Assembly: GCA_002070455.1 (NCBI GenBank)
Contig: MWDG01000008.1
Location: 1 to 64,000, forward strand
Direction: 5' to 3'
Source: Deltaproteobacteria bacterium ADurb.Bin151
Lineage (GTDB): Bacteria; Desulfobacterota; Syntrophia; Syntrophales; Smithellaceae
Length of the DNA stretch: 64,000 nt
In this document: one piece after another, positions 38,891 to 63,722 of the stretch
How positions within the stretch are numbered: the first letter of the stretch is position 1
Layout of the letters: every line of letters starts with the position of its first letter
Notes under the pieces: generated by a model
Seen by the model: the letters and a program-made list of their open reading frames with translations, nothing else
Told to the model about the DNA's origin: nothing
The model's database searches: none
Translations under genes and position numbers: made by a program

Positions 38891-41125
38891 CTATAATGCT
38901 TCTACCCTACAGGGTACATACCGGTGCATCGGTGTGCAGAACTGATCTCGGTGTGTGTTTTTGGTCAAACGATTCACGTTGGCACCGTATTTGACACCAT
39001 TGTAAACCATACCGAATCCGTGGGGAATGACTACGTGGCCTTGATGCGCTGTTTCCGTTATCTCCAGTTCGATTTCTTCTGAGCCTGCTTCGGTTGTTAC
39101 CCGGACCTGCTGCCCATCCTTTAAATTTAAGGCTGCTGCGTCGTCTGGATGCATGGCCAGCGTGCAGGCACGCTTGCCTTCGTTCCAGGCGGGATCGCGC
39201 ATCATCGTGTTGGCGTTCATGGACGTATGCCGTCCGGCCATTAAGATGAGGGGGTATTGGGAAGGCATGACCAGCATTGCCTCTTCTCTTTGTGCTTCGG
39301 CGCTTTGCAGTTCCTCAAGCAGTTCCGGAATATTGAGATTGATCTTGCCGTCTTCCGTTTTTATTTCTGAAAAGTTGTTTTCCGGATCGATCCTGCCCAC
39401 CCAGATGCCTTCCGGATGATCGAGAATCTGCTGGTAGAGTTCCTCACCCAGGCCCGGTCCGGACTGGAAGCCCGCCCGGATGGCATTTTTATATAATGAC
39501 TTCGGAGCAACCTGGAGCATGCCCCAAAGCGCGGCCAGATGGACGGAACCCATGGCTTTGCCCAAGGTTTTCCCCAGAATAAAAGGCATGGTCTTCATGG
39601 CTTTCGGTTCTGTCATAGCGTATTCCATGAGTGCCTTGGCGAAGGCCGCATGACTGTCTTCTGCAGCTTGATAAAGGCTTTCCGGAATGGGTGGAATCAG
39701 GCCCAGCTTATCGGCCAGACGAAGATGAATTTCCCCCAGTTCCAGTGGTTCTCCATCCGGTTCAATAATGGGACGCCGCATCTGGAAGTGAATGCCGGGA
39801 TAGGTCATGGGAAAGAAAGTGCCGTCCCAGGATTCATAGCCTGTGCGGGAAGGCAGCACGTAGTGCGACAGGGCGGCTGTTTCTGTCATGGCAACTTCCC
39901 CTGTGACCAGAAGGTCCAGACGGCGGAAAGCGTTTTCATAAGCCGTTGTATCAGCGTAAGAGCGAAGCGGATTAGACTGCGTAACGATAACCGCTCTCAG
40001 GCGCTCAGGATGCTCTGACAGGATTTCTTCCGGCATGACGTTAGGCGGGAAGGAACCACAAACCGGGAAGGCATTTGTGGTCATTGTCCGCCAGATTTTG
40101 GGATCTCTCTCATCCGTGTGCGGGCCAATGGGCATCATGTGGCCGTTAATAACGTTGCCACCCGGCATGCAAAGCCTGCCGCAGATCGCCTGAAGAATAA
40201 CGATCAAATAAGAGTTTAAACCGCTGTGGCGCCCCATGAAAATGCCCAGATCATAACGCAGGGACGATGTGCGCGTGGCATAGGCTTTGGTAACTTCACG
40301 CACCTGATCAAAATGGAGATTGCAGACCTTCAGGGCGGCGCGGACGTCAAAATTTGAAAAGAGTGATTTCACCTGGTCAAAACCCGATGTGTGCTCATTC
40401 AGGTAATCTTTGTTTTCCCATCCTTCAGCGAGAATCATGGAGATCATCGCCTTGAGCAGCAGAGCATCCGTTCCGGGACGGATTTGCAGATGGATATCGG
40501 CAAGTTTTGCGGTTTCCGATACACGAGGGTCGACAACAATCAGCAGTTTATTCGGATCTTTCGCAAGGCGCTGAAGTTGCCGCGGCGCCTGGGGAATCTG
40601 ATGGCTTTGCATGCCGTTCCATCCGAATGTCAGAAGAACTTCAGTATTATTGACATCCGGCTGGTCATGCAGATACTGCTTTCCGTGAGTCCGCCCTACA
40701 ACCCAGAAAGCGCCGGCAAATTCCTGCGCCAGTGCGCTGTACTGATATTGCGAACCGAGCAGGCGCATCAGGCGGACGCCGAAAGCCGCCTCAAAATGGC
40801 AGCCCTGGCCGCCGCCCCCCATGTAAGCGAATGAGCGTGGGCCATACTGGTCAATAATGCTTTTGAGTTTGGCGGCAATTTCGTCAATGGCCTGATCCCA
40901 GGATATGCGTTCAAATTGATCACCGACTTTTTTTAAAGGATATTTCAGGCGGTCGGCATTGTGCTGATGATAGGCGACATTCAAACCCTTACGGCAGACA
41001 TAGCCTTCGCTCTTGACGTTGATCTTGTCTCCCTTTACCTTGACGATGCGGTTTGCTTCCACCTCGATTTCCAGGCCGCAGTTCTGTGCGCAAAGGACGC
41101 ATCCGGTTTTATAAATGGTTCCCAT
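38891..41125 (-). CDS. Molybdopterin-dependent oxidoreductase (DMSO reductase family)
   Basis: A 744-residue catalytic subunit. The N-terminal CVLCAQNCG with a later CRKG binds a 4Fe-4S cluster; MGGGGQGCH, LTFGWNGMQSHQ and the C-terminal PHGFGMVYNGVKYGANVN motif fit molybdopterin bis-MGD enzymes. There is no Tat signal, so it is cytoplasmic. No electron-transfer subunit gene is adjacent. The position between a MarR regulator and a crotonase points to redox chemistry on an organic acid or CoA ester, but the substrate is unknown. AGGAG precedes the start. Confidence 0.9.
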   Translation of the reverse strand: MGTIYKTGCVLCAQNCGLEIEVEANRIVKVKGDKINVKSEGYVCRKGLNVAYHQHNADRLKYPLKKVGDQFERISWDQAIDEIAAKLKSIIDQYGPRSFAYMGGGGQGCHFEAAFGVRLMRLLGSQYQYSALAQEFAGAFWVVGRTHGKQYLHDQPDVNNTEVLLTFGWNGMQSHQIPQAPRQLQRLAKDPNKLLIVVDPRVSETAKLADIHLQIRPGTDALLLKAMISMILAEGWENKDYLNEHTSGFDQVKSLFSNFDVRAALKVCNLHFDQVREVTKAYATRTSSLRYDLGIFMGRHSGLNSYLIVILQAICGRLCMPGGNVINGHMMPIGPHTDERDPKIWRTMTTNAFPVCGSFPPNVMPEEILSEHPERLRAVIVTQSNPLRSYADTTAYENAFRRLDLLVTGEVAMTETAALSHYVLPSRTGYESWDGTFFPMTYPGIHFQMRRPIIEPDGEPLELGEIHLRLADKLGLIPPIPESLYQAAEDSHAAFAKALMEYAMTEPKAMKTMPFILGKTLGKAMGSVHLAALWGMLQVAPKSLYKNAIRAGFQSGPGLGEELYQQILDHPEGIWVGRIDPENNFSEIKTEDGKINLNIPELLEELQSAEAQREEAMLVMPSQYPLILMAGRHTSMNANTMMRDPAWNEGKRACTLAMHPDDAAALNLKDGQQVRVTTEAGSEEIELEITETAHQGHVVIPHGFGMVYNGVKYGANVNRLTKNTHRDQFCTPMHRYVPCRVEAL

Positions 41126-55016: not shown

Positions 55017-55045
55017 TTGACAAGCTGGAATCTCTCATTTATATA
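55017..55045 (+). promoter_or_regulatory. Sigma-70 promoter of the aromatic operon
   Basis: TTGACA (55017-55022), 17-bp spacer, TATATA (55040-55045). Transcription would start near 55052, giving a leader RNA of about 240 nt before aroF. Confidence 0.85.
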
Positions 55046-55076: not shown

Positions 55077-55172
55077 ATGAACAGACAGAGCAACGCAAAC
55101 TGCAATCTTTTCGGCTTTTGGTTTTATTACTATTATGCGTCGGTCTGCCTGTCGCTGAGGAGGACTTGGTAA
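55077..55172 (+). CDS. Aromatic leader peptide of the aro operon attenuator
   Basis: A 31-codon frame, ATG 55077 to TAA 55170-55172. Codons 12-20 read FGFWFYYYY, followed later by a C-terminal Trp (codon 31): three Phe, two Trp and four Tyr in all. Such a density is the hallmark of trpL/pheL-type leader peptides. It lies between the operon promoter and a terminator and directly upstream of aroF, the first enzyme of the pathway. There is no strong Shine-Dalgarno site (only GACTGG upstream), so translation efficiency is uncertain. Its job would be ribosome stalling when charged Phe-, Tyr- or Trp-tRNA is short. Confidence 0.85.
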   Translation: MNRQSNANCNLFGFWFYYYYASVCLSLRRTW

Positions 55173-55233
55173 GGTAATTTAAACCAACAACAGCCATGGG
55201 TAGACCGAAAGGAAGCCGCCCATGGCTTTTTTT
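55083..55233 (+). promoter_or_regulatory. Attenuator RNA with alternative pairings 1:2, 2:3 and 3:4
   Basis: Segment 1 (55083-55097, AGACAGAGCAACGCA) can pair with segment 2 (55136-55150, TGCGTCGGTCTGCCT), 12 of 15 positions, with the aromatic codons in the loop. Segment 2 (55140-55152) can also pair with segment 3 (55196-55208), including nine contiguous pairs CGGTCTGCC/GGTAGACCG (one G-U). Segment 3 (55192-55200) forms the terminator with segment 4 (55219-55227). Stalling at FWFYYYY would block 1:2, allow 2:3 and prevent termination. Confidence 0.7.
55192..55233 (+). terminator. Attenuator terminator before aroF
   Basis: AGCCATGGG (55192-55200) pairs perfectly with CCCATGGCT (55219-55227) over an 18-base loop, followed by TTTTTTT. 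It lies 20 bp after the leader-peptide stop codon and 59 bp before aroF. Confidence 0.88.
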
Positions 55234-55239
55234 GTTTTT

Positions 55240-55272
55240 AAGGTCATGGCAGCAAAAGTCATGGCCTTTTTT
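55240..55272 (+). terminator. Second tandem terminator-like hairpin before aroF
   Basis: AAGGTCATG (55240-55248) pairs with CATGGCCTT (55260-55268), one G-U, then a T run. It shares the CATGG core with the first terminator, so arms of the two hairpins could cross-pair. It ends 19 bp before the aroF start. Confidence 0.65.
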
Positions 55273-55291
55273 ATTTGGGGAGGAGGAATTT

Positions 55292-56302
55292 ATGATTATT
55301 GTTATGAAAAGTCATGCAACAGCAAAACAGATTGAAGATGTGGTGCAATGGATTGAATCCGTGGGGTACAAAGCGCATCCTTCCAGCGGTGTGGAACGCA
55401 CCATTATCGGAGCGGTTGGCGATAACCGGGATAAAGCGGTACTCAAGTATGCCGAGTCGCTGCCGGGTGTGGAAAAGACCATGCCGATTCTTAAACCCTA
55501 CAAGCTGGCCAGCCGTGAATCTCACGAGGGAGATACGGTCATCAATGTCGGTTCGATTGAGATTGGCGGACCGGAATTTGTCGTGATGGCCGGACCGTGT
55601 GCGATCGAAAGCGAAGAACAATTGTTAGAGAGTGCCTATGTTGTCAAAAAAGGAGGCGGTCAGATTTTAAGGGGCGGCGCTTTCAAGCCGCGAACATCAC
55701 CCTACAGTTTTCAGGGCATGGAAGAAGAAGGCCTCAAGGTGCTGGATTCCGTCAGCCGGAAAACCGGCCTGCCGACTGTGACCGAAGTGGTCAATCCCGC
55801 GGACGTTGATCTGGTAGAATCCTATGCCGATGTTCTGCAAATCGGCGCCCGCAACGTCCAGAATTTTGCACTGCTGAAAAAAGTCGGCCACGCGCGCAAG
55901 CCTGTGCTGCTTAAACGGGGGATGATGACAACTATTGAAGAGTTATTGATGTCGGCGGAATACATTCTCTCTTCCGGTAATCCCAACGTCATCCTCTGTG
56001 AACGCGGTATCCGTACCTTTGAAACCAGCACCCGCAATACGCTCGACATCAGTGCAGTTCCGGTGCTGAAAAGCCTGACGCATTTACCGGTGGTGATCGA
56101 TCCCAGTCACGCCGCTGGAAACTGGAAGTATGTCATTCCTCTTTCCCGTGCTGCTGTAGCCGTGGGCGCCGACGGCATTATCGTGGAAGTGCATCCTGAA
56201 CCGGAAAAAGCGGTATCCGATGGCGCGCAGTCTCTCAAACCGGAAAAGTTCTATCAAATGATGGATGATATTCGCTTGATTGCCAGGGCGATGCGAAGCT
56301 GA
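55292..56302 (+). CDS. aroF: DAHP synthase, class I beta type
   Basis: First enzyme of aromatic synthesis, condensing PEP and erythrose-4-phosphate. From ATG 55292 (GGGAGGAGG 5 nt upstream) it has about 336 residues: an N-terminal ferredoxin-like/ACT-like regulatory domain (about 1-70, IIVMKSHATAKQIEDV) and the catalytic barrel with VVMAGPCAIES, GGAFKPRTSPYSFQG and VVIDPSHAAGNW. This build resembles the Thermotoga-type, feedback-sensitive enzyme. The frame is open upstream through the terminators, but those codons are leader RNA. It is followed by aroB. Confidence 0.93.
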   Translation: MIIVMKSHATAKQIEDVVQWIESVGYKAHPSSGVERTIIGAVGDNRDKAVLKYAESLPGVEKTMPILKPYKLASRESHEGDTVINVGSIEIGGPEFVVMAGPCAIESEEQLLESAYVVKKGGGQILRGGAFKPRTSPYSFQGMEEEGLKVLDSVSRKTGLPTVTEVVNPADVDLVESYADVLQIGARNVQNFALLKKVGHARKPVLLKRGMMTTIEELLMSAEYILSSGNPNVILCERGIRTFETSTRNTLDISAVPVLKSLTHLPVVIDPSHAAGNWKYVIPLSRAAVAVGADGIIVEVHPEPEKAVSDGAQSLKPEKFYQMMDDIRLIARAMRS

Positions 56303-56316
56303 AAGAGGGGATGTGT

Positions 56317-57423
56317 ATGAGAACCTTGAAAGTCAATCTTGATAAAAAAACATTATCTTCTTACGAAATACGCATGGGTAAAGGCATTCTTGACCGTGTG
56401 ATGCTTCTCATCGCCAAAAACCACAAGGCCGCCCGCTATGTGATTGTCACGGACAGCAATGTCAACAGGCTTTACGGGCAGGTCATGATCGCTGGCATGG
56501 AAAAGGCGGGCCTGAAAACATTTGTGATTGAAATTCCGGCTGGGGAATCTTCCAAAAATATTACGGTGGTGATGGATGTAGCCGGAAGGCTATTAGCCGA
56601 GGGCGCGGATCGGGAAACAATGCTGATCGCTTTAGGCGGCGGCGTGGTAGGAGACCTGACTGGATTTATTGCGTCGGTTTACATGCGTTCGGTTCCGTAT
56701 ATTCAGGTTCCGACAACACTGATCGGACAGCTGGACAGTGCGATAGGAGGAAAAACCGCCGTGGATCTCCCACAGGGAAAGAATCTGCTGGGCACATTTT
56801 ACCAGCCGCGTGCGGTGTTTGCAGATGTGAACTTTCTTGAAACGCTGCCGGATCGGGAATTTAATAATGGCCTTGCGGAAATGATAAAATACGGCATTAT
56901 TGAAGATGAAAGTTTGTTCAGGCGGCTGGAAGAGGATATGGATGCCATCAAAAGCAGAGACTCGGGGATGCTTTTGAAAATGATCGAAACCTGTTGCCGC
57001 ATTAAAAAGTCGATTGTGGAGATTGATGAACGTGAACAGGGTCTCAGAAGAATTTTAAATTTCGGCCACACGCTGGGGCACGCTCTGGAAGCAGCTTCGG
57101 ACTATAGCCTCTCCCACGGTGAAGGTGTGGCACTGGGTATGATTGCCGCCGCCCGTCTTTCCGTTATCATGAATTATCTTTCCAGGGTGGAATCAGACCG
57201 GGTAAAAAGTGTGATTGCCAGGGCGGGACTGCCGACAACGATTGATGCTTCCTTGTCCATGGACGAAGTGATCAGGCGCTTCAGGGCGGACAAAAAGAAG
57301 AGGGATGATGTGATTCATTTTGTCCTGATTAAAAAAATAGGCATGCCCTTTGTAAATGGAAGCATTCATGATCAGCAGATTGCAGATGTCCTGGAGGAAA
57401 TGAAAGATGAAACCGTCTCTTGA
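56317..57423 (+). CDS. aroB: 3-dehydroquinate synthase
   Basis: Converts DAHP to 3-dehydroquinate using NAD and a metal. About 368 residues with GGGVVGDLTGFIASVYMRSVPYIQVPTTLIGQLDSAIGGKTAVD, the metal-binding NFGHTLGHALE and the nucleotide-binding N-terminal region. ATG 56317 is preferred (AGAGGGG 6 nt upstream). It overlaps pheA by 17 bp. Confidence 0.95.
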   Translation: MRTLKVNLDKKTLSSYEIRMGKGILDRVMLLIAKNHKAARYVIVTDSNVNRLYGQVMIAGMEKAGLKTFVIEIPAGESSKNITVVMDVAGRLLAEGADRETMLIALGGGVVGDLTGFIASVYMRSVPYIQVPTTLIGQLDSAIGGKTAVDLPQGKNLLGTFYQPRAVFADVNFLETLPDREFNNGLAEMIKYGIIEDESLFRRLEEDMDAIKSRDSGMLLKMIETCCRIKKSIVEIDEREQGLRRILNFGHTLGHALEAASDYSLSHGEGVALGMIAAARLSVIMNYLSRVESDRVKSVIARAGLPTTIDASLSMDEVIRRFRADKKKRDDVIHFVLIKKIGMPFVNGSIHDQQIADVLEEMKDETVS

Positions 57424-58486
57424 TGTGTTGCGAGAGGAGATGAGGAAAAAAGACCGGGAGATTATCCGGCTCCTCAACGAGCGTTCCCGGATTTCTGTTC
57501 AGATCGGTAAGGTGAAAGGACAGACCGGGCTTGAAATCTACAATCCAGCTCAGGAAGCGAGGGTGTTTCGATATCTGCAGGAGCTCAATGACGGCCCGCT
57601 GTCGGGCAGACAGATGTCAGCGATTTTCCGGGAAATCATTTCTGCGTCGCGAGACTTGCAAAAGCCCATGAATATTGCGTATTTGGGGCCGGAAGGATCC
57701 TTCAGCCATCTGGCCGCGCGCCTGCATTTTGGCGCTTCCAGCAATTTCTTCCCGCAGCAGGGGATTGCACGTGTTTTTGATGAAGTGGAAAAAGGCGCCG
57801 TCGAATGGGGAGTTGTGCCTGTGGAAAATTCCCTGGAAGGTTCTGTGAATGTTACTTTGGATCGGCTGGTCCTGACCCCCCTGAAGATTCAGGCTGAAAT
57901 GTATCTGCGTATCAGTCAGTGCCTGATTTCATCTGCTAAAAATCTGAAAAGCATTAAAAATGTCTATTCGCATCCGCAGGGTCTTGCTCAGTGTCAGTCC
58001 TGGCTCAGGTCCCATATGCCCAATGCAGTACTGGGCGAAATGGAAAGCACTGCTGCCGCGGCGCTCATGGTGCGGAAAATGAAAACGGCCGCGGCGATCG
58101 GCAGTTCGCTTGCCGCCGCCACCTATGGATTGAATGTTCTGGCGGAAGGGATTGAAGACAATCCGTCTAATACAACGCGATTTTTGGTGATCGGGCAGGG
58201 TGAAGGGACGCCTACGGGAGAGGACAAGACATCTGTTATCTTCGCGACGCCCGATTTTCCCGGATCGCTTCACCGCGCGCTGGCCTCCTTTGCCAAACGA
58301 AAAATTAATCTGGCTAAGATTGAGTCGCACCCCGTAAAGGAAAGAATGTGGGAGTATCTTTTCTTTGTCGATATGATCGGCCATATGCATGATAAGGCCG
58401 TTAAGGCAAGTTTGAAGGAGTTAAAAGATAAAACGGTCTATTTGAAGATACTGGGATCGTATCCTCAAGCCAAGGATGGATTATGA
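57407..58486 (+). CDS. pheA: Bifunctional chorismate mutase/prephenate dehydratase
   Basis: P-protein of 359 residues. The AroQ chorismate mutase is N-terminal (about 1-85, LREEMRKKDREIIRLLNERSRI), then prephenate dehydratase (AYLGPEGSFSHLAA, about 88; VVPVENSLEGSV; SNTTRFLVI) and an ACT domain (about 270-350). In the ACT domain the phenylalanine-binding signature GALxxxL/ESRP is GSLHRAL/ESHP, so feedback may be altered. It overlaps both neighbours. Confidence 0.93.
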   Translation: MKPSLDVLREEMRKKDREIIRLLNERSRISVQIGKVKGQTGLEIYNPAQEARVFRYLQELNDGPLSGRQMSAIFREIISASRDLQKPMNIAYLGPEGSFSHLAARLHFGASSNFFPQQGIARVFDEVEKGAVEWGVVPVENSLEGSVNVTLDRLVLTPLKIQAEMYLRISQCLISSAKNLKSIKNVYSHPQGLAQCQSWLRSHMPNAVLGEMESTAAAALMVRKMKTAAAIGSSLAAATYGLNVLAEGIEDNPSNTTRFLVIGQGEGTPTGEDKTSVIFATPDFPGSLHRALASFAKRKINLAKIESHPVKERMWEYLFFVDMIGHMHDKAVKASLKELKDKTVYLKILGSYPQAKDGL

Positions 58487-60060
58487 TTTGCATACCCGTT
58501 ACAGACAAGACGCACAAAGATGCGCTTCAGACTATTGAGAGAGGCGCCCAGGAAGCCGATGCAGTTGAGCTCCGCATGGATTTGATCCCTGACGGCGATC
58601 TGCCGGGACTGATTGACGCGGCCAGACGCGCATCCAAGCGAGTCAAAATCATTGTCACCTGCCGAAGACCGGAGGAAGCGCTCCTACCGGAACCCATTGA
58701 TTTGCCTTTCCGGAAAGAAGGCTTGAGCCTGGCTGCCAAAATCGATCTATTGAAACAGGCCGTCGAGTTGGGTGCCGATTTTGTCGATATCGAACTGGCC
58801 TGCGGAGACAGGGCCATCCGGCAGATTCTGTCCTTTATTCGCAGAAGGAAAAGCACTGCACGTGTGATTGTTTCCTGGCATGATGTTTCCCAAGCGCCAT
58901 CGCTTGCGAAATTAAAAACCATATTCCATGCGTGTATGAAGGTTGGGGCGGATATTGTAAAAATTGTCCCTTATGCCCGAAAAATGGAGGACAACCTGAA
59001 AGTGCTGAGCCTGATCGACTACGCGATTGCCCGCGATCAAAAGATCATTGCAATGTGCATGGGAGAACTGGGTCAGATCAGCCGCATAATGGCGCCGGTC
59101 TGGGGCAGTTATCTGGGGTTTGCTGTATTGCGCGGCGGCAAAAAGTCGGCACCCGGCCAGATGACAGCCCGGACAATGAAAGAATTCCAGCATTTACTGC
59201 AAAGAAATAGACGATCAGTTCAACCCTGGCTTTTGCCGCCGGGTGCGTCCAATTTTGTTCTTCTGGGCCATCCCGTTCGTCATAGCCTCTCGCCGCTGAT
59301 GCATAACAAGGCCCTGGAAGCCATGCAGATTGAAGGACATTACAGCGCCTTTTGCGTCAATGATCTTGCCGCTGCGATTGAAGGAATCCGGGGGATGAAT
59401 ATCCGTGGAGCTTCCGTTACCATTCCTTTTAAAACAACTGTGATGGAATATCTCGATGAGATTGATGAAGATGCGGCGGCCCTTGGCGCGGTCAATACGA
59501 TTGTGAATGACCGGGGGCGGCTTGCCGGCTACAATACGGATTGGCTGGGCTTGATTACAGCGGTGCAAGACAGGATGAACATCGCGGGCAAGACGATTGC
59601 GATTATCGGTGCAGGAGGGACGGCGCGGGCGGCGGTTTACGGCATCAAAAAACAGGGTGGAAATCCGATCATCATCAATAGGACACTGGATAAGGCCAGA
59701 GTGCTTGCGACGCTTTTTGATTGTCCGTTTTATCCGCTTTCGGCAATCGGTAAAATCAGGGCCCATGTACTGATTAATACCACATCTGTCGGAATGTATC
59801 CGCAGATTCATCAATCACCGGTTCCGGCACCGGTTCTGGTGAATTTCGAGCTGGTGATGGACGTGATTTACAATCCTTTGATGACCAAGTTGCTTCGGGA
59901 CGCCGAGACCAGGGGAGTGAAGACAATTCCCGGTCTGGAGATGTTTGTGAGGCAGGGCGCCGGGCAATTGAAATTATGGACGGGAAAAGAAGCTCCCCTG
60001 GCACTGATGAAAAAAACCGTTCGGGAGAGGTTAAAGAATATTGAAAACCGAGATGAATAA
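58483..60060 (+). CDS. aroDE: Bifunctional 3-dehydroquinate dehydratase / shikimate dehydrogenase
   Basis: A 525-residue fusion for steps 3 and 4 of the pathway. The N-terminal type I dehydroquinase (about 1-230) has VELRMDLI, catalytic His in VSWHDVS and Schiff-base Lys in DIVKIVPYA. The C-terminal shikimate dehydrogenase (about 245-520) has LLGHPVRHSLSPLMHN, VTIPFKTTVM (catalytic Lys), YNTDWLG and IIGAGGTARAA for NADP. Fusions of this order are known from plants and some bacteria. Its ATG overlaps the pheA stop by 4 bp (ATGA). Confidence 0.94.
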   Translation: MICIPVTDKTHKDALQTIERGAQEADAVELRMDLIPDGDLPGLIDAARRASKRVKIIVTCRRPEEALLPEPIDLPFRKEGLSLAAKIDLLKQAVELGADFVDIELACGDRAIRQILSFIRRRKSTARVIVSWHDVSQAPSLAKLKTIFHACMKVGADIVKIVPYARKMEDNLKVLSLIDYAIARDQKIIAMCMGELGQISRIMAPVWGSYLGFAVLRGGKKSAPGQMTARTMKEFQHLLQRNRRSVQPWLLPPGASNFVLLGHPVRHSLSPLMHNKALEAMQIEGHYSAFCVNDLAAAIEGIRGMNIRGASVTIPFKTTVMEYLDEIDEDAAALGAVNTIVNDRGRLAGYNTDWLGLITAVQDRMNIAGKTIAIIGAGGTARAAVYGIKKQGGNPIIINRTLDKARVLATLFDCPFYPLSAIGKIRAHVLINTTSVGMYPQIHQSPVPAPVLVNFELVMDVIYNPLMTKLLRDAETRGVKTIPGLEMFVRQGAGQLKLWTGKEAPLALMKKTVRERLKNIENRDE

Positions 60061-61297
60061 AAGGGGTGCTTTTGTAGCTGTTGACGTGCCCGGTTCGAAA
60101 AGTCTGACACAGCGTGCTTTGATTGCCGCCTCACTGGCCGAAGGAGAATCGCTGATTCGCCATCCACTGGTTGCGGAGGATACACGGTACTTGATTGCAG
60201 GACTGAAAAAACTGGGTGCGAAGATCGAACCGGTCGAGGATGGTTTTAAAATGATTGGTACCGGTGGAAATATTACCAATCAATGCAATGAAATATTTTT
60301 GGGGAACAACGGAACAGCGCTCCGCTTTCTTACGGCGCTGGTGTGCCTGGGACGCGGACGTTATGTCCTGACCGGTGAGAAGCGTTTGCAGGAGAGGCCG
60401 GTCGGACCGCTGGTTGCAGCCCTGCAGAACATGGGTGTGGCGATTTCCTGCCGCGACAACTGCCCGCCCGTGGAAGTGATGGCCAACGGGCTGAAGGGAG
60501 GCGAGATCACCCTAACGGACATTGAAAGCTCGCAGTATGTGTCTGCTCTGCTTTTATGCGGTCCTTACACGGCAAAAGGCATTGTGCTGACCCTGGAGGG
60601 CAACATTGTCTCTGCTCCTTATATCGATTTGACCGTTCGGGTGATGAATGATTTTGGCGCGAAAATCATGATGAGCGGAAAACATCAGTATATGGTCGGG
60701 ACGCAGAGCATTTATAGGGGACGGGAATATTATGTGGAAGGGGATGCCTCCAGCGCTTCATACTTTTTTCTGGCTGCCGCCCTGGCCAAAAGAACGGTTC
60801 GCGTACGTGGGGTCACCAGGAAAAGCGCGCAGGGGGATATCCGCCTGCTCAACATATTGGAAAAACTCGGATGCAGGGTTACAGACGGGGAAACCTGGGT
60901 GGAAGTATCCGCAGATCAGGATCTGATAGAAGGAGACATGACTTTTGATATGGGGGATATTCCGGACATGGTCCCGACGGCGGGCGTTCTTGCGGCTTAC
61001 CGCAAAGGGCGGACGAGGATTACCAATGTCGCTCATTTGAGGATCAAGGAAAGTAACCGTCTTGCGGCAATGGTCGAGGAACTTAACCGGATCGGTATTC
61101 ATGCGTCGGAACTGCCCGACGGTCTGATGGTGGAAGGAGGAATCCCCCATGGCGCGGATATCTCTACCTATAACGACCACCGGATTGCTATGAGTTTTGC
61201 TGTTGCGGGGCTGGTTACGCCGGGCATGGTGATTGCGGATAAAAAGTGCGTGGATAAATCCTTCCCGGGGTTTTGGCGGGAGCTGGCAAAACTATGA
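60041..61297 (+). CDS. aroA: 3-phosphoshikimate 1-carboxyvinyltransferase (EPSP synthase)
   Basis: Sixth pathway enzyme, adding enolpyruvyl to shikimate-3-phosphate. 418 residues: DVPGSKSLTQRALIAASLAEG, LGNNGTALRFLTAL, GEKRLQERPVGPL, VEGDASSASYF and the final YNDHRIAMSFAVAG. The NNGTALR form (instead of NAGTAMR) occurs in class II-like or divergent enzymes. The TTG start at 60041 has GGGAGAGG 10 nt upstream and overlaps aroDE; ATG 60053 is a weaker alternative. Confidence 0.93.
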   Translation: MKTEMNKRGAFVAVDVPGSKSLTQRALIAASLAEGESLIRHPLVAEDTRYLIAGLKKLGAKIEPVEDGFKMIGTGGNITNQCNEIFLGNNGTALRFLTALVCLGRGRYVLTGEKRLQERPVGPLVAALQNMGVAISCRDNCPPVEVMANGLKGGEITLTDIESSQYVSALLLCGPYTAKGIVLTLEGNIVSAPYIDLTVRVMNDFGAKIMMSGKHQYMVGTQSIYRGREYYVEGDASSASYFFLAAALAKRTVRVRGVTRKSAQGDIRLLNILEKLGCRVTDGETWVEVSADQDLIEGDMTFDMGDIPDMVPTAGVLAAYRKGRTRITNVAHLRIKESNRLAAMVEELNRIGIHASELPDGLMVEGGIPHGADISTYNDHRIAMSFAVAGLVTPGMVIADKKCVDKSFPGFWRELAKL

Positions 61298-61857
61298 AAA
61301 TCATCCTTATCGGCTATCGGGCGTCCGGAAAGTCAACAATCGGAGCGATTCTTTCAAAAAAGCTCAAAATCCCGTTTATCGACACTGATCAGATTATCAT
61401 GGAAGAAACAGGCATACCGATTAAGGAATTTGTGGCACAAAACGGATGGGAGGCCTTCCGCAAAAAGGAAACAGAAGTGATCGCTTCAGTCTGCGGTATG
61501 AATCTTTGTATCGTTGCCACGGGCGGGGGAGCGGTATTGGCCGCTGCAAACAGAGAGATGTTGAAAAAATCGGGAACCCTGATATATTTAAAAACACCTT
61601 TGCGCGATATTGTCGAGAGGCTCAAACGGGATGTGCACAACGAACAGACGAGGCCGCAATTTACCACGGAATCTCTTGAGGATGAGACGATGGCTGTCCT
61701 GAAGGAGCGCATTCCTGTTTACGAAGCCATTGCTGATTTTACGGTGGAAACAGACGGCAGAAATATTAGGCAGGTCAGTGACTGTATTTATCAGCATTTG
61801 TTCAACACGGGCATCGTATCCGAGATTAAAAATAAAAAGAAGATTCAGCCGGAATGA
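61294..61857 (+). CDS. aroK: Shikimate kinase
   Basis: Phosphorylates shikimate at the 3-hydroxyl. About 187 residues with P-loop GYRASGKSTIG, the substrate-binding DTDQIIMEE and the glycine-rich VATGGGAVL. ATG 61294 overlaps the aroA stop (ATGA), with GGGAG upstream. The C-terminus is basic (KNKKKIQPE). Confidence 0.93.
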   Translation: MKIILIGYRASGKSTIGAILSKKLKIPFIDTDQIIMEETGIPIKEFVAQNGWEAFRKKETEVIASVCGMNLCIVATGGGAVLAAANREMLKKSGTLIYLKTPLRDIVERLKRDVHNEQTRPQFTTESLEDETMAVLKERIPVYEAIADFTVETDGRNIRQVSDCIYQHLFNTGIVSEIKNKKKIQPE

Positions 61858-61875: not shown

Positions 61876-62952
61876 ATGGCGGGAAATACCTTTGGCGAAT
61901 TGTTTCGCGTAACCACCTGGGGGGAGTCCCATGGTTTGGCGCTGGGCGTGGTGATCGACGGCTGTCCATCCGGTATGGATCTGATCGAAGGTGACATCCA
62001 ACAGGCACTGGACCGACGAAAACCCTCCAAAGGGACGGTATCCACATCGCGCGCCGAGAAAGACCGTGTGGAAATCCTGTCCGGTGTTTTTCAGGGCAAG
62101 ACGACAGGCACCCCGATATCGCTGGTCATCCGTAATGCGGATGCACAATCGGCAAGTTATGATGATCTGAAGGACATATTTCGTCCGGGGCACGGTGATT
62201 ACACCTACCATAAAAAATACGGAATCCGCGACTGGCGTGGCGGAGGACGTTCGTCAGGACGGGAAACCGTGGCCCGTGTTGCTGCGGGCGCGGTTGCCGA
62301 AAAAGTGATCAACACGGCAGGAATGGAAGTGATCGCCTATACGAAAAGCATTGGCGGAATTGAGATGAATTCTGCCAATCTGTGGTCAGGTGAGGATTTT
62401 AAAAAGAAAGTTCGCGAAAACGCCTTGTATTGTCCTGATCATTCAGCTGCGCGAGCGATGGAAAATCTGCTGGCCGATGTCCGCAGGGCAGGGGATACCC
62501 TCGGTGGTGTGGTCGAAATCATCGTGCGGGGCTGTCCGGCAGGACTGGGCGAACCGGTGTTTGACAGGATGGACGCCGATCTGGCGAAAGGCCTCATGAG
62601 CATCGGAACAGTGAAAGCCGTCGAAATCGGGGATGGATTTGCTGTAGCCGCCCGAAAAGGCTCCGAAACGAATGATCCGATGGGTGCTTCGGGTTTTATG
62701 AAAAATTCTTCCGGAGGGATTCTGGCGGGGATTACCACCGGCCAGGACATCATCCTGCGCGTCTACTGCAAGCCGATTCCATCGATTGCTCTGACGCAGC
62801 AAACGATTGATACAGACGGCCGGGAGCGGTCGTTTGAAATCAGTGGCCGTCATGACATTTGCGTTATTCCGCGAATTGTACCGGTCTGCGAAGCAATGGC
62901 CTGCCTTACGCTGGCCGACCACTGGCTGAGACAGAAGGCGGTCCGTCTATGA
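61876..62952 (+). CDS. aroC: Chorismate synthase
   Basis: Last common step, making chorismate with reduced FMN. 358 residues: GNTFGELFRVTTWGESHG at the N-terminus, GHGDYTYHKKYGIRDWRGGGRSSGRET, and late SSGGILAGITTGQDI. GGAG precedes the ATG. Ends with ATGA overlap to tyrA. Confidence 0.96.
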   Translation: MAGNTFGELFRVTTWGESHGLALGVVIDGCPSGMDLIEGDIQQALDRRKPSKGTVSTSRAEKDRVEILSGVFQGKTTGTPISLVIRNADAQSASYDDLKDIFRPGHGDYTYHKKYGIRDWRGGGRSSGRETVARVAAGAVAEKVINTAGMEVIAYTKSIGGIEMNSANLWSGEDFKKKVRENALYCPDHSAARAMENLLADVRRAGDTLGGVVEIIVRGCPAGLGEPVFDRMDADLAKGLMSIGTVKAVEIGDGFAVAARKGSETNDPMGASGFMKNSSGGILAGITTGQDIILRVYCKPIPSIALTQQTIDTDGRERSFEISGRHDICVIPRIVPVCEAMACLTLADHWLRQKAVRL

Positions 62953-63722
62953 AGAAGGCGACCGTAGGCATTATCGGCGGGACTAACGGTATGGGGCGGT
63001 GGCTTGCTGATCTTCTGACCGCACAGGGTTTCACCGTTCATGTCACCGGACGAAAAACGCAAATGACGGCGGTCGACGCGGCTCGGATCTGTGATGTTGT
63101 CGTCATATCGGTGCCGATTGCGGCAACGTCCTCTGTGATTGCCAAGGTCGGTCCGCATGTCAGGAAGGGTCAGGCTCTGATGGATTTGACGTCGCTGAAG
63201 AAAGAACCGGTGGCGCTGATGCTTCAGCATTCTGAAGCGGAGGTGGTCGGGTGCCACCCGCTTTTCGGCCCTTCTGTAACGGAACCGTCAGGGCACAATA
63301 TTGTTTTGTGCCGGGGCCGGGGAGATGCCTGGTACGCATTGATCAGAACAATTTTTGAAAATACCGGCTATACTGTTCTGGAAAGGACACCCGGCGAGCA
63401 TGACCGGATGATGGCGATTGTTCAGGTCCTCAACCATTTCAATACCATTGCGCTGGGCATGGCGATTGCCGAAACCGGGATCCCGCTTTCGGAAGTCAGC
63501 CAGTTTTCCACACCGATTTTCAAAACCAAGATGGAGATCGTCAAAAAAATATTTACGGAATCCCCTGAACTTTACGCTGACATCATCGCCGGAAATCCCG
63601 ATACAAATGAAGTGCTTCAAACCTACGAAAGGGTTGTCGGGAAAATAATCAGTCTGCTTGCCAAAGGTGACGGGTCCAAACTGAAAGACTCCATGGAATC
63701 CGTCGCAAAGAAATTGTTTTAA
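62949..63722 (+). CDS. tyrA: Prephenate dehydrogenase
   Basis: Oxidises prephenate to 4-hydroxyphenylpyruvate for tyrosine. About 257 residues: Rossmann start VGIIGGTNGMGRWLADLL, then DVVVISVPI, GCHPLFGPS (catalytic His region) and HDRMMAIVQVLNHF. The layout is the stand-alone TyrA without fused mutase or ACT domain. ATG 62949 overlaps the aroC stop. It closes the operon; no terminator stands out after it. Confidence 0.92.
   Translation: MKKATVGIIGGTNGMGRWLADLLTAQGFTVHVTGRKTQMTAVDAARICDVVVISVPIAATSSVIAKVGPHVRKGQALMDLTSLKKEPVALMLQHSEAEVVGCHPLFGPSVTEPSGHNIVLCRGRGDAWYALIRTIFENTGYTVLERTPGEHDRMMAIVQVLNHFNTIALGMAIAETGIPLSEVSQFSTPIFKTKMEIVKKIFTESPELYADIIAGNPDTNEVLQTYERVVGKIISLLAKGDGSKLKDSMESVAKKLF

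Follow-up and report, generated by a model that had tools for sequence, protein, structure and literature searches.

A candidate aromatic-sensing attenuator with tandem terminators upstream of the aro operon of a Smithellaceae bacterium

Our findings point, with high probability, to a ribosome-mediated transcription attenuator of the trp/his type at the aro operon of the window, as we call the 64,000-nucleotide stretch of DNA analysed here. Judging from modelled ribosome positions, the element probably reads charged Phe- and Tyr-tRNA, with Trp-tRNA a probable third input, and probably controls the common pathway together with the Phe and Tyr branches. Coevolution of two downstream segments suggests that the switch is a six-segment relay of hisL topology in which hairpins 3:4 and 5:6 are both terminators; the 4:5 step of this relay, taken alone, we regard as fairly likely. 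The argument draws on the anatomy of the locus, conservation of the leader and its frame, covariation in pairings 2:3, 3:4 and 5:6, swap tests of 1:2 and 4:5, and the modelled dependence of the fold on ribosome position. If correct, this reading adds the whole chorismate pathway, here in syntrophic and mostly uncultured bacteria, to what leader peptides control.

Anatomy of the leader and its operon

The leader ORF, MNRQSNANCNLFGFWFYYYYASVCLSLRRTW (55077-55172, plus strand, as are all features of the locus), runs for 31 codons from the ATG at 55077 to the TAA at 55170-55172, carries three Phe, two Trp and four Tyr codons, and is conserved across the order. Its aromatic cluster F12-Y20 (F G F W F Y Y Y Y) occupies 55110-55136, so that the leader described in the initial annotation, a 31-codon ORF with this cluster upstream of the operon, is borne out by the sequence. 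Within the window, no strong Shine-Dalgarno sequence was seen before the ORF. A promoter-like element (55017-55045) consists of -35 TTGACA (55017-55022), a 17 nt spacer and -10 TATATA (55040-55045). It had been called a consensus promoter, which is exact for the perfect -35 and generous for the whole, because the -10 matches TATAAT at 4/6 and a stricter promoter scan omits the promoter.

Segment 1 (55079-55106) pairs with segment 2 (55141-55157, with the conserved core GGTCTGCC at 55142-55149) in a fold of -17.5 kcal/mol. Segment 2 can instead pair with segment 3 (55191-55207), joining CGGTCTGCCTGTCGCTG to CAGCCATGGGTAGACCG with 16/17 positions paired at -29.3 kcal/mol. Within segment 3 lies AGCCATGGG, the 5' arm of terminator 1 (3:4; 55192-55233), which pairs with CCCATGGCT at -19.5 kcal/mol and is followed by T7; the arms lie at 55192-55200 and 55219-55227 and the U tract at 55227-55233. 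The three competing pairings and the terminator that had been read from the sequence thus all exist. Segment 4 (55211-55228) provides the 3' arm of terminator 1 and has segment 5 as a probable alternative partner. Directly after terminator 1, and just 5' of the aroF ribosome-binding site, stands another hairpin that carries a U tract of its own: terminator 2 (5:6; 55240-55272), with arms at 55240-55253 and 55258-55268 and a U tract at 55267-55272. Both terminator 2 and the 4:5 pairing were absent from the initial annotation. The stop codon lies 20 nt beyond the GGTCTGCC core, in agreement with the earlier estimate of about 20 nt beyond segment 2, and 12 nt beyond the extended segment 2.

The operon, identified by NCBIfam, comprises aroF (55292-56302), encoding a DAHP synthase of the TIGR01361/PRK08673 type, aroB (56311-57423), pheA for chorismate mutase/prephenate dehydratase (57407-58486), an aroD-aroE fusion (58483-60060), aroA (60041-61297), a shikimate kinase gene (aroK/aroL, 61273-61857), aroC (61876-62952) and tyrA for prephenate dehydrogenase (62943-63722). 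Most identities lie above curated cut-offs; the shikimate kinase (best family 149.9 bits against a cut-off of 161) and tyrA fall below them. This complete aro set with pheA and tyrA agrees with the earlier description of an operon that serves the common pathway and both the Phe and the Tyr branch.

Conservation and covariation

We compared the sequences upstream of aroF in 50 genomes that represent about 20 families of the order. An ORF with at least six F/W/Y within nine residues was found in 47/50, vs 1.7% of 1000 dinucleotide shuffles, so that the aromatic leader expected before orthologous operons is kept in nearly all of those examined; the 8/9 density of the window's own leader was reached by 0/1000 shuffles. 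The frame of the leader relative to GGTCTGCC is identical in 50/50. Aromatic class is kept by position while F and Y swap freely, and codon -5, just before the core, is aromatic in none of the 50. Model R1, which spans segment 2 through terminator 1, matches 147/155 genomes of the order and 136/297 sampled genomes of the phylum at E <=0.01, E-values that are rough. A scan of 84,980 species genomes with the core pattern returned 61 loci, all in records labelled Smithella, Smithellaceae, Syntrophaceae, Syntrophales, Syntrophobacterales or (delta)proteobacterium.

Pairings 2:3, 3:4 and 5:6 covary. Among 84 distinct sequences, mostly aroF leaders, the terminator helices 3:4 and 5:6 show 73 double-changed cells vs 13.5 when shuffled, with 97% paired, and 2:3 shows 31 vs 17.4, with 88.9% paired. 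Across the phylum, in sets that cover differing leaders and downstream genes, 2:3 has 30 double-changed cells vs 10.5 shuffled (0/500; slid controls 3-11; 90.8% paired) and 3:4 has 61 vs 18.4, far above slid controls. The covariation of 2:3 and 3:4 anticipated in the initial annotation therefore holds phylum-wide. In a simple swap test, 1:2, 2:3, 3:4, 4:5 and 5:6 all beat exchanged partners, and the controls 1:3, 3:5 and 2:5 do not; the 1:2 pairing, which the initial annotation had also listed for checking in relatives, is significant here while its control 1:3 is not. A mutually exclusive antiterminator and terminator, kept by covariation, is what an attenuator of the trp/phe/his type displays.

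Segments 4 and 5 are paired in 87% of cells, but most pair-count measures do not rise above shuffles, and counting gives no support to covariation of the helix as a whole. Because the pair counts did not decide, we turned to a refined swap test that pairs a genome's segment with partners from other lineages and removes row and column effects, and with them composition. Four of 49 aroF leaders (L032, L047, L048 and L050), which are without a normal second terminator, were set aside. With 29 representatives the test gave z -3.9 for 2:3, -7.2 for 3:4, -10.9 for 5:6 and -4.3 for 4:5 (p 0.00005), and six control pairings gave p 0.05-0.74. These comparisons make the 4:5 pairing probably real in aro leaders.

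Dependence of the fold on ribosome position

A ribosome footprint was set at each codon and pairs spanning the ribosome were forbidden, which is an assumption of the model. An earlier version, which allowed pairs across the ribosome and gave 2:3 at the stop codon, was replaced by this one. Under equilibrium folding with the steric rule, the probability of terminator 1 is 0.00-0.04 with the A-site at F12-Y18 (55110-55130), the modelled antitermination codons. From Y19 onwards, up to and including the stop, it is 0.98, and Y19-Y20 mark the edge of the modelled sensor; at the first eight codons it is intermediate (0.49-0.64). Four other footprints gave a similar profile. The probability of 1:2 before segment 3 is made averages 0.76 and is 0.69 for the window's leader. 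The regulatory codons are thus sited, in the model, such that a stall leaves segment 2 free for segment 3, as in known attenuators.

Equilibrium folding was rejected as a sole predictor: on E. coli trpL, used as a control, it was flat at 0.83-0.85 and did not reproduce antitermination. Because of this failure we added a calculation of 2:3 before segment 4 is made, which gives 0.78 at both trpL Trp codons and reproduces the known behaviour. The default without a ribosome is ambiguous in the window: the terminator has probability 0.94 if the transcript is cut at terminator 1, and 2:3 is favoured before segment 4 is made and when terminator 2 is included.

The initial annotation proposed a sensor that mixes Phe, Trp and Tyr codons. 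In the model this stands for F12-Y18, with three Phe, one Trp and two Tyr codons, and fails for the Trp at codon 31, which is outside the modelled sensor: it lies past segment 2, a stall there is modelled to terminate, and the position is Cys in most sister genera among the aroF upstream regions of the order. Conservation, covariation and modelling together lend strong support to ribosome-mediated attenuation by aromatic supply. The same annotation flagged the position of the non-starved ribosome as a concern. The likely answer, which rests on the steric assumption, is that a ribosome halted at the stop codon occupies the 2:3 loop and thereby prevents 2:3, leaving 1:2 able to refold in its wake (P 0.77 in the model without spanning pairs).

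Provided that the RNA is made and translated, and that stalling at uncharged tRNA is the driver, the following cycle would operate. When aromatics are plentiful, the ribosome would cross the aromatic codons, cover segment 2 and park at the stop within the 2:3 loop; 3:4 would then form and transcription would end at terminator 1, with terminator 2 as a second barrier. A ribosome stalled at F12-Y18 would sit within the 1:2 loop, allowing 2:3 to form and disarm terminator 1. The freed segment 4 would pair with segment 5 while segment 6 has yet to be transcribed, so that terminator 2 would also be disarmed and the operon read. In the model before segment 6, stalls at F12-Y18 give 2:3 with 4:5, whereas 3:4 without 4:5 results when the ribosome has reached A21 or a later codon; with segment 3 sequestered, 97% of 93 sequences are expected to form a 4:5 helix of at least 6 bp. 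After segment 6 has been transcribed, 5:6 outcompetes 4:5 at equilibrium, and the relay must therefore be kinetic, with 4:5 presumed to form ahead of 5:6.

Alternative readings

The most serious competitor, which we consider possible though doubtful, is a plain four-segment attenuator in which terminator 2 is an unregulated fail-safe and 4:5 a by-product of the self-complementary CCATGG arms common to both hairpins. CCATGG is indeed a palindrome, and this reading would also account for the unremarkable pair counts of 4:5 and for its loss to 5:6 at equilibrium. In 25 non-aroF relatives, moreover, 4:5 (p 0.039) does no better than the 3:6 control (p 0.049). Against this, a terminator 2 that escaped regulation would keep the operon shut in starvation too, the strong 4:5 interaction of the aroF leaders has no counterpart in 3:6, 3:5 or 4:6, and the loop-proximal part of 4:5 is significant by itself in aroF leaders (p 0.0003). 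A separate and somewhat unlikely alternative concerns the input, namely that the switch effectively senses Phe and Tyr only and the Trp codon is incidental. Leaders average 2.8 Phe and 3.8 Tyr codons vs 0.9 Trp, 5/50 are without Trp upstream of the core, and trpE has its own WWWW leader; yet Trp does occur upstream of the core in 45/50, in 32 of them at the same codon (offset -23), and in the window this Trp falls centrally among the modelled antitermination codons.

Leader peptides can have functions of their own, as with S. meliloti peTrpL, which acts in trans (PMC7298713), and the conservation of the peptide past its aromatic run (VC.SLRRT) could be taken to mean that the ORF is mainly a functional small protein acting in trans. 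We consider this very improbable: the conserved tail overlaps segment 2, and in relatives the peptide changes completely (WWW, FFFF, YYYY) while the RNA core stays. Position before an amino-acid operon would equally suit a metabolite riboswitch, a T-box or a protein-bound terminator, which we judge more improbable still, as Rfam at the gathering threshold gives no match at this locus or at 20 related loci, and a permissive search gave chance-level matches only. The sole gathering-level match in the window is a TPP riboswitch (RF00059, 43114-43214, 68.9 bits), outside the attenuator.

Relation to known attenuators

The hisL topology sets 1:2, 3:4 and 5:6 against 2:3 and 4:5. The attenuator proposed here resembles hisL of E. 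coli and Salmonella in its leader with regulatory codons and in its extra middle hairpin, and would probably share this topology. Unlike hisL, it carries aromatic codons, and 3:4, its middle hairpin, doubles as a U-tract terminator, which makes two terminators; the proposed tandem-terminator relay is a testable variation on the hisL design. For the his attenuator, a further hairpin is documented between the first one and the terminator (PMC1183508). As in E. coli pheL and trpL, ribosome position would choose between 2:3 and 3:4, although those leaders have one terminator, and the trpL stop precedes segment 2 whereas the window's follows it. Against the Phe_leader model RF01859 the window scores 17.5 bits, short of the gathering score of 55, and model R1 has no match at E. 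coli pheL or trpL.

The earlier remark that known leaders usually sense one amino acid was too strong, since in E. coli the ilvGMEDA and thr leaders each respond to several amino acids. A published account lists the two as attenuators (PMC1183508). The suggestion that a leader of this kind may be undescribed needs dividing. Leader peptides before aroF are known from C. glutamicum, where aroR precedes the DAHP synthase gene with Phe-Tyr-Phe only and in a different phylum (PMC11802643, PMC4046766), and one is proposed in Acholeplasma, where uORFC-13-1 is a predicted uORF with a terminator before aroF that differs from the window's leader in its Phe-coding U run, structure and lineage (PMC8632094). 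Within the open-access literature, where searches on leaders in Desulfovibrio, Geobacter, Syntrophus and Deltaproteobacteria brought up no matching paper, no description appears to exist of the Desulfobacterota RNA family, of its use with varied leader peptides, or of a relay whose two downstream hairpins both act as terminators.

Reuse of the core before other genes

Sequence comparison indicates a modular core: throughout the phylum, one RNA element is combined with differing leader peptides (Trp, Phe or Tyr) before further genes of aromatic amino-acid metabolism, and the leaders suit the genes that follow. It lies before an ADTH synthase gene with F/Y/W leaders (L155), a class-I DAHP synthase gene (L157) and trpE with the leader WRWWWY (L182). 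A simple hairpin search finds a second terminator in 45/65 phylum-level matches. In the window's own genome, a locus located via trpE and not by R1 (L215, G000:C44) has the leader MKNIAVKLNLNNWWWWNLAGRIFRR (NNWWWWN) and two tandem terminators, then trpE-trpG-trpD. We put forward, at even confidence, a Desulfobacterota-wide attenuator family absent from Rfam, with the core GGTCTGCC ... GCC[AG]TGGG[CT]AGACC ... GCCCA[CT]GGC-U tract, in which exchange of the leader would change the amino acid sensed and, in aro leaders, a relay of 2:3 then 4:5 would disarm the tandem terminators. If so, the leader's amino acid predicts the substrate or product of the downstream gene and could annotate transporters and enzymes of unknown specificity, with Phe indicated for LivJ-like ABC systems and Trp for a PF13557 outer-membrane protein, both described below.

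Leaders of the form WWW accompany the core before a PF13557 outer-membrane protein (L067, L196). Trp-only leaders (e.g. MRIRSMGWWWRINGSVRVCPS) before this MetA-like protein recur at L057, L074, L079, L081, L086, L174 and L202 as well, and suggest Trp-responsive control of an outer-membrane channel. Phe leaders precede LivJ-like binding proteins (L169, L172). In the window's own genome (L169/L189/L193; G000:C7, core 39634-39714), the Phe-rich leader MSRSKQMLKQYLLFRQAFTFYFFSFIGFKVCLKVS precedes a LivJ-like ABC transporter operon with an AMP-binding ligase among its genes, which suggests an uptake system for aromatic amino acids or aryl acids; relatives (L170-L173, L197-L200) have Phe leaders too. 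The core with a Tyr leader precedes a LivJ-like binding protein at L194, and Tyr-rich leaders (YYGYYYY, YDYYGYGY) before another such protein at L194, L195 and L208 may reflect Tyr uptake. At L212 the Phe-rich ORF MYRLSFNPFAAFFGINFGFFKAGFL ends before the core and a phenylacetate-CoA ligase gene lies downstream, possibly for aryl-acid salvage into aromatic amino acids.

Leu-rich ORFs occur beside weaker matches, one followed by a 2-oxoacid oxidoreductase gamma subunit gene (L176) and one, MISFMTTMITASALLSLLLGLVLLGLLLKASCPSSLGRH, before leuA in the window's own genome (L190, G000:C72:5815-5887, minus strand; weak R1 match, E 0.0036). In a Trp-leader copy (L081), part of the second terminator region is tandemly duplicated just 3' of terminator 1. 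At L016 the U tract of terminator 1 is gone (CCATGGTTTAAAGAG) but terminator 2 retains one, and the latter may therefore be the working terminator there.
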